A program made the translations under genes and the position numbers. DNA of 31,406 nt from a virus. Location of the stretch: the IMG/VR virus record IMGVR_UViG_3300046718_000718, positions 1 to 31,406 of that record; one strand, 5' to 3'. The notes under the pieces were generated by a model that saw nothing but the letters and a program-made list of their open reading frames with translations, was not told where the DNA came from and searched no databases. Positions 13,581 through 24,947 of the stretch are shown here, piece after piece; within the stretch, counting starts at the first letter, position 1; every line of letters begins with the position of its first letter.

Positions 13581-13764
13581 ATGTAAACCGACCTATCCAC
13601 TCGATCCGAACTCCACCTGGGGAAAGAAGTTCATCGAGCACGCAGACCAGCTTCAGTACATGGTCAACCAGATGGGGTACTGCAACGGCAGAGACAAGCG
13701 GGCGTTTTCCGCGCTGACCAAGGCGATCGAGCGAGTTCGTAAGGCTGTGGCACGGAAAGGCTGA
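13576..13764 (+). CDS. Hypothetical helical protein, 62 residues
   Basis: It reads MPCKPTYPLDPNSTWGKKFI, then YMVNQMGYCNGRDKRAFSAL and a basic helix ending VARKG. No family was recognised. It begins on ATGCC of a junction element and ends in another, like its neighbours. Confidence 0.55.
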   Translation: MPCKPTYPLDPNSTWGKKFIEHADQLQYMVNQMGYCNGRDKRAFSALTKAIERVRKAVARKG

Positions 13765-20237: not shown

Positions 20238-20591
20238 ATGGAAAGCGGCATCACGTTCCTGCCGGTCCCGATTCCCGGAATCCGACTCAGCGGCAACGCC
20301 GGAGATGGAGAGGACGGCTCCATGATCGCGCTTCGACGCGGCGGCGAAGAGATCCTCTTCGCCTCGTGGGAGGTCGACGAGGTCGAAGGCTCCGACGACG
20401 CCAAGGCCCGCGGCATGGTCTGGGTCCCGGTCGGCGAGTTCTCGCCCGACCCCGAGGCGATCCGTCCGCCGGACATCGGCGTGGACGACCTGCCTGCCGA
20501 GGAGCAGCCCGACGGCACCGCGGAGCGCGAGGGCAGCCCCTTCGGCGGCGCCCGTAGCGGCCTGAAGCGTCGCCCGACCACCGGAGGGTAG
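20238..20591 (+). CDS. Hypothetical acidic protein, 117 residues
   Basis: It begins MESGITFLPVPIPGIRLSGN and has a beta-like EILFASWEVDEVEGSDD. Its low-complexity tail is rich in Pro, Glu and Gly (PPDIGVDDLPAEEQPDG, then RRPTTGG). It is likely partly disordered. CGGAGGGTACAGAG gives the SD. No family was recognised. Confidence 0.6.
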   Translation: MESGITFLPVPIPGIRLSGNAGDGEDGSMIALRRGGEEILFASWEVDEVEGSDDAKARGMVWVPVGEFSPDPEAIRPPDIGVDDLPAEEQPDGTAEREGSPFGGARSGLKRRPTTGG

Positions 20592-20592
20592 C

Positions 20593-20961
20593 ATGGGCAA
20601 GAAGAACAAGAATATCGACGAGCCGGAGAACTTCGAAGTCTGGATCCTCTACGCCGAGAAGGGCTGGATGCAGGTCGAAGAGGGCGGCAACGCGATCTTC
20701 CCGAAGAAGGAGCGTGCGCTGCTGCTCGCCCAGTCCAAGTCCAACGGCAAGGGCGTGATCGAGACCATGGTGATCGCCCGGCGCCCGATCGCGACCTTCA
20801 ACGGCGAGGCGATCGCGTTCAAGCACAAACAGAATTCCATCGAAAAGAAGAAGGAGAATGCCCATGCAGAACCCGAAGTACATGGCGATCGTCCGGAAGC
20901 GTGTGACGCTGCGGACGCCGGAGCTCAACTCCAAGGCGAAGCCGCTCCTGGTGGATGCTGA
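20593..20961 (+). CDS. Hypothetical protein overlapping the next gene by 98 bases
   Basis: Residues 1-85 (NFEVWILYAEKGWMQVEEGG, then IETMVIARRPIATFNGEAIA) look like a genuine small beta protein. From about residue 88 the product (AEPEVHGDRPEACDAADAGA...) is the shadow of the downstream gene. The original stop may have been lost by a frameshift near 20850, or the overlap is tolerated. The start follows GGAGGGTAGC. Confidence 0.55.
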   Translation: MGKKNKNIDEPENFEVWILYAEKGWMQVEEGGNAIFPKKERALLLAQSKSNGKGVIETMVIARRPIATFNGEAIAFKHKQNSIEKKKENAHAEPEVHGDRPEACDAADAGAQLQGEAAPGGC

Positions 20962-21223
20962 CGGGAAGGAACTCCCGAAGAACGACTCGGGCGAGTACGT
21001 CGGCAGCGGCAGCCAGAAGGTCAACGTCCAGAAGACGGACGCCACGGCCGACCCGCTGATGGACGACGCCGGGAATCCGGTCGAAGGCGGAACGCCCGAG
21101 GCCTTGCTTCACGCCGTCCTGAGCCACTTCAAGGATGAGGATGACACTGAGATCGTCTCGGTGACCATCCTGGAGATCCGTCCTGTCCGCGAGGTCTCCG
21201 GGTTGGAGCTCGCGAGACTGTGA
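20864..21223 (+). CDS. Hypothetical protein, 119 residues
   Basis: AAGGAG at 20851-20856 lies 7 bases before ATG 20864; the in-frame ATG at 20858 is too close. The product (YMAIVRKRVTLRTPELNSKA, then DSGEYVGSGSQKVN and DTEIVSVTILEIRPVREV) looks like a soluble alpha/beta protein. It is coupled by GTGA to the next gene. No family was recognised. Confidence 0.6.
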   Translation: MQNPKYMAIVRKRVTLRTPELNSKAKPLLVDADGKELPKNDSGEYVGSGSQKVNVQKTDATADPLMDDAGNPVEGGTPEALLHAVLSHFKDEDDTEIVSVTILEIRPVREVSGLELARL

Positions 21224-21510
21224 CGGGAGACGAGCTGACCCCCATGACGAAGCTCTCGTTCGACTGCGGGGACATCCCGGTCGCCTGCATCTGCAGCGGC
21301 GCGATCTATGCCCTCGACCGGATTGTCGAAGGCAGCGTCGACACGCTCGTGACTGTCCGCGGGAAGGTCATCAGGGGAGACGTGACCGTGATCAACGGTC
21401 GCCCCTGCGCGGACTGCCGCTTCCAGCCGTCGGATTCGGCCTGCGGCGAGAAGTTGACGACCTGCGCGTACCGGCCGCTGGCCGGTCCGCTCTTCGTTCC
21501 ACGACCGTAG
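21220..21510 (+). CDS. Cys-containing protein, 96 residues
   Basis: The GTG at 21220 overlaps the upstream TGA; an in-frame ATG at 21244 is an alternative. The product has FDCGDIPVACICSGAIYALD, then CADCRFQPSDSACGEKLTTC, a seven-Cys pattern that could fold as a zinc or iron-sulfur module. It is the last gene before the GC-rich structured segment. Confidence 0.6.
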   Translation: MTGDELTPMTKLSFDCGDIPVACICSGAIYALDRIVEGSVDTLVTVRGKVIRGDVTVINGRPCADCRFQPSDSACGEKLTTCAYRPLAGPLFVPRP

Positions 21511-21803
21511 ACGTTTCTCGGTGTGCCCTTTCCTTCCCAGGACTGGGGGCGCACCACACCCCTCCCTAGCGGGGGGAGGTCCGGCCAGTAGTACCCTATC
21601 CCGGACCTCCCCCGGCGCCCGTCGCGGGCCCCGGAACCCCGGTCTGGAGGCCGGAAAAGGCCTTCCGCGGGGTCCTGCGCCCCAGGGGGCGGCCGGTAGG
21701 GGGCACGTCCTGCGAACGGCGGGATAGGAGAGCCCAAGCCCCTGCGGAGGGGCTTTGGACCCGCCCGTGCCCCCGACCGGCGCCCCCTGGGGATCCCCTC
21801 CCT
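21511..21803. other. GC-rich gene-free segment with dense inverted repeats
   Basis: No convincing gene lies here. Perfect 13-base arms GGGGGAGGTCCGG (21572-21584) and CCGGACCTCCCCC (21601-21613) flank a 16-base loop. GCCCG-TCG-CGGGC is at 21617-21629. A longer inverted repeat joins 21680-21707 with 21766-21792 (one extra G, one mismatch) around a loop containing the AAGCCCCT hairpin. CCCAGGACTGGG is at 21536-21547. The segment could be a structured RNA on either strand, a terminator cluster, or an origin or packaging region. Confidence 0.6.
21736..21755. terminator. Hairpin, possible bidirectional terminator
   Basis: AAGCCCCT-GCGG-AGGGGCTT is a perfect 8-bp stem with a 4-base loop. Only a short T run follows (CTTTGG on plus; the minus side has CTTGGG), so intrinsic termination would be moderate. 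It sits in the loop of a larger inverted repeat (21680-21792). Confidence 0.5.
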
Positions 21804-21828
21804 GGGCACTCTATGGTTATTCTGTGCC
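21804..21828 (-). repeat. Dispersed junction element, minus-strand copy
   Basis: On the minus strand it reads TGGCAC, 11 bases, AGAGTGCC, the exact consensus, facing the GC-rich segment rather than the SprT-like gene. This suggests that the element controls, or marks the edge of, something in 21511-21803. Confidence 0.75.
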
Positions 21829-21843
21829 AAATGCGGTATTTAT

Positions 21844-21871
21844 TTGACATCATACCTAGGTATGATATCAT
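21844..21871 (+). promoter_or_regulatory. Promoter with overlapping palindromic operators
   Basis: TTGACA (21844-21849), 16 bases, TATCAT (21866-21871). The spacer contains a perfect 18-base palindrome ATCATACCTAGGTATGAT (21849-21866), and a second one, ATGATATCAT (21862-21871), overlaps the -10 box. A dimeric repressor could switch the downstream SprT-like gene set. The design parallels the promoter at 5432. Confidence 0.75.
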
Positions 21872-21897
21872 AGATACAGTTGATGGAGGATCTGACC

Positions 21898-22476
21898 ATG
21901 AGCAAGGCAACCCAGGTGAACCGCGAGGCGTGGCTCCGCGCGGCGTATTCCCTCCTGCGGAAGGAGCTGATCAAGGAGTGCCCGGCCCAGGTGGCGCTCT
22001 CCTGGAGCTTCCCGGCCAAGGGCGGCACGTCGGCGAACCGGCGCCGCATCGGGGAGTGTCACTACAAGGGCGCGTCCGCTGGAGGCGCCGTCGAGGGCGA
22101 CTGCGTCGTCCTGATCTCGCCGACCCTCCGGGAGCCCGCCCAGATCGTCGAGACCCTGCTCCACGAGATGGTCCACGTCGCGCTCCCCATGGGTACCGGT
22201 CACCGGAAGCAGTTCTCCCGCCTCGCGGCCCGGGTCGGCCTCGTCAAGCCCTGGACGGCGACCAAGGCCTCCCCGGAGCTCGCCAAGCGGATCGAGGGGT
22301 TCCTGAAGAAGCTGCCCGCGTGGCCCGGCGGCTACCTGGAGATCCACACGACCCAGAAGAACCGCCAGCTGAAGGCGGTCTGCTCCTGCGACCGGATCAT
22401 CCGCGGATCGCTCAAGCTGTTCGGCGACGGGCCGATCATCTGCGGGCTCTGTGAATGCACCTTCGAGCTGGCGTAG
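21898..22476 (+). CDS. SprT-like zinc metallopeptidase-family protein
   Basis: The 192-residue protein has LLHEMVHVALPMGTGHRKQF, with His89-Glu90-His93 as zinc and catalytic ligands and the GH of the SprT family (GHR..F). A C-terminal Cys region (VCSCDRIIRG, then ICGLCECTF) fits the zinc ribbon common to SprT/Spartan proteins. Such proteases cut DNA-bound or DNA-crosslinked proteins; phage copies are uncharacterised. GGAGGA at 21885-21890 sets the ATG at 21898. It is the first gene behind the double-palindrome promoter. Confidence 0.8.
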   Translation: MSKATQVNREAWLRAAYSLLRKELIKECPAQVALSWSFPAKGGTSANRRRIGECHYKGASAGGAVEGDCVVLISPTLREPAQIVETLLHEMVHVALPMGTGHRKQFSRLAARVGLVKPWTATKASPELAKRIEGFLKKLPAWPGGYLEIHTTQKNRQLKAVCSCDRIIRGSLKLFGDGPIICGLCECTFELA

Positions 22477-24826: not shown

Positions 24827-24862
24827 GGAGGGCGGACCCTCTTTGGACCCTCTCTCTCTATC

Positions 24863-24888
24863 GGGGCCGGGCAATGTTGCCCGGCCCC
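24863..24888. terminator. Strong hairpin, probable transcription terminator
   Basis: GGGGCCGGGC-AATGTT-GCCCGGCCCC is a perfect 10-bp GC-rich stem, extendable by AA/TT to 12 bp. ATCTTGC follows, a weak U tract. A CTCTCTCTAT run precedes it. It lies in the 121-base gap after the LacI-type HTH gene and before a fresh gene set, as a terminator should. Confidence 0.75.
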
Positions 24889-24895
24889 ATCTTGC

Positions 24896-24918
24896 GGGTG
24901 CTCCTGCGTGGAGCATCC
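24896..24918. other. Second hairpin before the 24948 gene
   Basis: GGGTGCTCC and GGAGCATCC form a 9-bp stem (one G-U pair) with a 5-base loop. It starts 8 bases after the terminator stem and ends 29 bases before the next ATG. It could be a second terminator, an RNA-processing site or a leader structure. Confidence 0.45.
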
Positions 24919-24947
24919 ACAAGGTACGAATGAAGAAGGAGAAACTA

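Follow-up and report, generated by a model that had tools for sequence, protein, structure and literature searches.

A GC-rich gap between two transcription units

The locus lies in a phage fragment of 31.4 kb, catalogued as a virus record, the whole of which is referred to here as the window. An operon of small genes (hereafter the left operon), whose tested ORFs gave no Pfam or PHROG match, ends at position 21510, and the next promoter, which is sigma-70-like, drives a gene for a SprT-like metallopeptidase (Table 1). The original prediction singled out the segment between them (21511-21803) as extremely GC-rich, gene-free and packed with nested inverted repeats, and its composition and folding bear this out. 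The GC content is 74.6 % between 21511 and 21805 (74–75 % for the segment), and among all 290-nt windows this one has the most stable fold, 4.7 standard deviations below the GC regression. On the plus strand the fold of the segment as a whole reaches -199 kcal/mol (z = -5.7), a stability that none of 100 dinucleotide shuffles equalled; against such shuffles the minus strand reaches z = -5.5.

The predicted 13-bp perfect stem is present, and so are the hairpin enclosed by the 27-nt repeat and the minus-strand consensus element placed at 21804, which proves to be one of about 12 dispersed copies. The 27-bp inverted repeat itself exists, but “near-perfect” was generous since its arms are 81 % complementary without gaps. 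As to the absence of genes, no frame is open throughout in all four orthologous gaps compared, which leaves no conserved ORF across the segment, but two antisense ORFs do cross it in the window (21306-21830 and 21596-21910, both on the minus strand). The segment contains no tRNA or tmRNA, and Rfam, including its group I/II introns, HEARO, riboswitches and phage ncRNAs, gave no match at the gathering score and chance-level matches only below it.

Table 1. Features of the hairpin cluster and its surroundings (window coordinates)
Feature	Position	Strand	Remarks
Left operon, 3′ part (four small ORFs)	20238-20591, 20593-20961, 20858-21223, 21220-21510	+	Orthologues in the same order in relatives
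H1	21520-21555; lower stem 21520-21528 / 21547-21555	+	Apical part CCTTCCCAGGA
Linker between H1 and H2	21556-21568	+	ACACCCCTCCCTA; unpaired, conserved
H2	21569-21616; stem 21572-21584 / 21601-21613	+	13-bp perfect stem, GGGGGAGGTCCGG with CCGGACCTCCCCC; basal extension
H3 (motif B)	21633-21675	+	GGAACCCC GGTCTGGAGGCCGGAAAAGGCCTTCCG CGGGGTCC
H4	21681-21792	+	27-nt inverted repeat 21681-21707 / 21766-21792; nested hairpin 21733-21758
GGCAC-N14-RTGCC element	21805-21828	-	GGCACTCT...TGTGCC; closes the cluster
Sigma-70 promoter	21844-21871	+	TTGACA-16-TATCAT, 11/12 consensus; starts the right transcription unit
SprT-like metallopeptidase gene	21898-22476	+	PF10263, 31 bits; first gene of the right unit
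Second conserved structured RNA	24844-24933		CCCTCTCTATC-type linker, GGGCCGG hairpin, hairpin TCTTGCGGG...TCCACAAGG with compensatory changes
GGCAC-N14-RTGCC elements	5399, 7249, 9543, 11514, 11792, 12433, 13176, 15942, 19516, 21805, 29422, 31062	two orientations	

A search with the SprT-like protein returned seven contigs carrying 70–81 % identical proteins, the longer ones measuring 67–73 kb, and the integrase and the DUF6011 protein as queries led back to the same phages only. Versions of the segment occur in six related uncultured phages (genomes of about 67–73 kb) that share the flanking gene order. The counted set thus comprises seven phages, the window, L005, L006, L007, L008, L009 and L011; L010 and L014 belong to a phage near-identical to L009 and are counted with it. 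A nucleotide search against annotated phages and plasmids gave no match, and no close relative or prophage was found in bacterial genomes.

In every relative the left operon ends inside or just before the cluster, which in six of the phages lies between the end of this operon and the SprT promoter. The informative exception is L006, where the left operon is found about 10 kb downstream of the SprT gene (around 58.2-59.1 kb of G002) and the cluster still comes after it, in the order H1, linker, H2, an HNH ORF, a GCAC element and a convergent gene. The SprT gene of L006 is preceded by leftward genes and has a promoter without the cluster. Since the cluster follows the displaced operon, it belongs to that operon, at its 3′ end, rather than to the SprT promoter. 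With unit limits read from gene order, a stable hairpin stands at the end of a transcription unit in all seven phages, the displaced copy included.

The SprT promoter contains a palindromic operator (21845-21870), and comparable TTGAC[AT] promoters with palindromes are found upstream of SprT in the relatives. The type of operator differs between the phages (window, L005-L011), the forms being ATCATACCTAGGTATGAT, GACTACTGTACAGTAGTC and ACAACGGTACTGTTG, a variety suggesting different repressor specificities.

Conserved core and strand of the putative RNA

Reading the gap in each relative confines conservation to roughly the first 100 nt, that is H1, an ACCCCUYYC linker and H2. H2 was found in all seven phages; H1 is missing in L009. 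The linker is kept as ACCCCTYnC in six of the seven, with a shift of one base in L011, and the apical sequence of H1 (CCUNCCCAGGA) is retained in the window, L005 and L008 while the lower stem covaries.

MAFFT alignments of the H1-H2 region were poor, and base pairs were instead counted in a register set by hand, against controls in which the 3′ arms are exchanged between phages (arm swaps). For H1, 51 of 54 cells can pair (94 %), with double-sided changes in 6 of the 9 pairs; the corresponding figures for H2 are 83 of 84 cells (99 %) and compensatory changes in 10 of 13 pairs, these percentages being somewhat favoured by a register picked by eye. The best of all derangements gave 78 % and 80 % pairing, and the z-scores from shuffled folds are independent of the choice of register. 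An automatic alignment of H2 alone contained a single double-sided pair, a low yield that we put down to misalignment by MAFFT and because of which the covariation result rests on the hand-made register. The covariance analysis proposed with the original prediction thus yields, in that register, the compensatory changes expected if H1 and H2 form a conserved structured RNA. The folds are kept while the letters change, so it is the shape that evolution preserves.

The remainder of the cluster behaves differently. Conservation of the stems in relatives holds for H1 and H2 but not for the 27-nt inverted repeat: H4 as such was not found in the relatives, whose folds from H3 to the end have z of about -1, and the most eye-catching repeat falls outside the conserved core. 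Motif B is conserved in its primary sequence, GGTCTGGAGG being common to the window, L008, L009 and L011; its other scan matches (L013, L015, L016 and L018) are unrelated coding sequences. At the place of the 21805-21828 element the relatives have GCAC...GTGC-type counterparts. A possible loop pseudoknot between 21595-21603 and 21720-21728 looks specific to the window.

A structured non-coding RNA transcribed leftward was one of the functions proposed for the segment; the structure is supported, the direction is not. On the plus strand the wobble cells in H1 and H2 are eight G-U against two A-C, the latter equivalent to G-U on the minus strand, and both A-C cells sit in the inner, weaker part of H1. 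Moreover, the orthologous segments have a more negative z on the plus than on the minus strand in seven of seven cases (plus-strand range -3.2 to -5.6). The cells are few and the signal is modest but consistent, and it points to a rightward RNA.

The same asymmetry bears on the notion that the cluster acts as DNA, for instance as a replication origin, a packaging site or a recombination hot spot, since it favours a single-stranded plus-strand RNA. Inverted repeats are dense here and the cumulative GC skew, which was also suggested as a check, has a maximum near 21.3 kb; the turn is however small, without a strong switch, and no tandem iterons are present in 21400-22000, which leaves the origin without support. 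Two contigs of one metagenome abut beside the cluster with a 12-nt overlap (L010:1-12 and L014:1-12, TGCACACTTCTA), probably an assembly break at the hairpins, but other relatives have contigs that span the site. These end elsewhere, at differing places, and a packaging terminus is rejected on this ground. As the cluster also travels with the operon in L006, a DNA-level role strikes us as very improbable.

An HNH-AP2 gene next to the hairpins

Three of the phages (L005, L006 and L008) encode a protein of 148–149 amino acids directly 3′ of H2 or motif B, from an ORF starting at or just past the place of H3. It belongs to PHROG 99 (E = 3e-28) and matches Pfam HNH_3 and AP2 below their cut-offs. 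The gene is present in a single copy in its carriers, always behind the same operon, and is absent from the window, L007, L009 and L011, a presence/absence at one site that has the pattern of a free-standing homing endonuclease. Proteins of this sort combining HNH and AP2 have been described (PMC10448857), and the ICP1-type genes found at phage module boundaries are alike in their domains and in being present or absent at one site among relatives. In contrast to these, the gene here lies beside hairpins that are conserved as a cluster, and the window has the cluster without the gene.

The cluster itself could in principle belong to a mobile element associated with the HNH gene, resembling an intron or HEARO, that has lost its ORF in the window, given that the ORF sits at exactly this place in three of seven phages. 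We regard this as highly unlikely: the single-copy ORF never interrupts a host gene, no Rfam intron or HEARO model matches, and L007, L009 and L011 retain the hairpins without the ORF, as expected for a target site. A HEARO-like element in particular is rejected, as the ORF is a short HNH-AP2 protein and the RNA has no match to any Rfam model. Homing endonuclease genes come and go at a site whose most striking repeat is not its conserved part.

Termination, regulation or 3′-end stabilisation

The position of the cluster, at the end of an operon with a promoter or a convergent gene immediately beyond, is what one would expect of a terminator array whose hairpins themselves release RNA polymerase. 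The terminator cluster of the original prediction thus fits by position, one relative having the cluster at a tail-to-tail junction, but the sequence does not agree. GC-rich hairpins are there, and an inner hairpin (AAGCCCC-TGCGG-AGGGGCTTT, at about 21736-21756) looks terminator-like, but a U-tract is absent after every conserved hairpin and a scan of the cluster found no intrinsic terminator. Cluster O phages have stem-loops of the intrinsic-terminator type (PMC4351075), which share with the present ones a GC-rich hairpin after the last gene of an operon; here, the U-tract is lacking and the hairpins form a tandem array with a conserved linker sequence. Mycobacterial RNA polymerase, to judge from the title of a work cited in PMC4351075, needs a U-tract at intrinsic terminators, although it may not be of the host's type. 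Because no U-tract is present, a classic terminator is unlikely.

Where mapped transcript ends coincide with GC-rich hairpins that lack a U-tract, the hairpins have been interpreted as barriers to exonucleolytic trimming and as stabilisers after Rho-dependent termination and trimming, and REP elements act likewise (PMC13289151). This precedent, the operon-end position and the missing U-tract lead us to lean towards an RNA element that stabilises the left operon's mRNA at its 3′ end and insulates what follows. The segment would be rightward-transcribed RNA forming the 3′ terminus of this operon, whose ORFs reach to 21510, and in it H1 and H2, very stable GC-rich hairpins joined by the conserved C-rich linker, serve as operon-end punctuation. 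By blocking 3′-to-5′ exonucleases they would set the mRNA end and stabilise it once transcription has stopped at the cluster or past it, and they may help to insulate the SprT promoter, which is of the repressor type; in the window, H3 and H4 would be further hairpins added to these. We infer all three of its elements, transcription of the segment, an mRNA end there and the exonuclease block. The likeness to REP-type and other U-tract-less hairpins of bacterial mRNAs (PMC13289151) lies in the GC-richness, the location at unit ends, the missing U-tract and the reading as exonuclease blocks, whereas the cluster is not a dispersed repeat: each phage has it at a single locus, and its two covarying hairpins are accompanied by a conserved linker.

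Covariation in six to seven phages, with arm-swap controls far below the observed pairing, speaks for 3′-end stabilisation. The absence of H1 in L009 counts against it. So does the conservation of the linker and of the H1 apex, which hints at a sequence-specific partner, something a simple barrier to exonucleases could do without. Such a partner, a protein or an mRNA, is the essence of the proposal that the cluster is a regulatory RNA, either a cis riboregulator or a processed phage sRNA, bound through the H1 apex and the ACCCCUYYCUA linker. The arms vary around a linker that is conserved. This linker resembles an anti-Shine-Dalgarno sequence and could alternatively pair with the 5′ arm of H2, and the same phages have a second conserved element with the same linker motif ahead of a GC-rich hairpin. 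Against this, L009 does without H1, in six phages a promoter stands between the cluster and the gene that follows, which makes cis control of SprT unlikely, and no promoter for a separate RNA was found; on balance we consider a regulatory RNA quite unlikely. Few covariation-supported operon-end RNA structures come from uncultured phages, and the cluster offers a short testable element that remains tied to one operon even when the operon moves.

A second structured element and dispersed repeats

The second element, in which the linker motif recurs at 24844, is better aligned than the H1-H2 cluster and has double-sided changes in 6 of 24 pairs. Strong matches occur in eight records, with weaker extra copies in G004 (64735-64824) and G009 (13639-13727), and the genes 3′ of it are unrelated between phages. 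It lies between co-directional genes with no obvious transcript end, which argues against the operon-end reading of its counterpart. Together, H1-ACCCCUYYCUA-H2 and 24844-24933 might represent a new class of phage RNA elements, recognisable by a common single-stranded linker ahead of a GC-rich hairpin. A specific protein, of the phage or the host, would read them and so control the elongation of transcription or the ends of mRNAs where modules meet; we think this rather doubtful. Further strong hairpins are found at gene junctions of the same phages.

The GGCAC-N14-RTGCC elements are of a similar kind to the 17-bp dyad repeats known from cluster O mycobacteriophages (PMC4351075). Some orthologous copies are 100 % identical over 26–31 bp, while identity elsewhere between the phages concerned is about 75 %. 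Another family of intergenic hairpins in the relatives (L105:10308-10346, L108:15120-15162, L112:7892-7928, L116:4586-4620 and L122:11586-11630) carries an anti-Shine-Dalgarno-like TCCTCC in the loop, which in some of them is on the minus strand, with pyrimidine/purine flanks that lengthen the stem.
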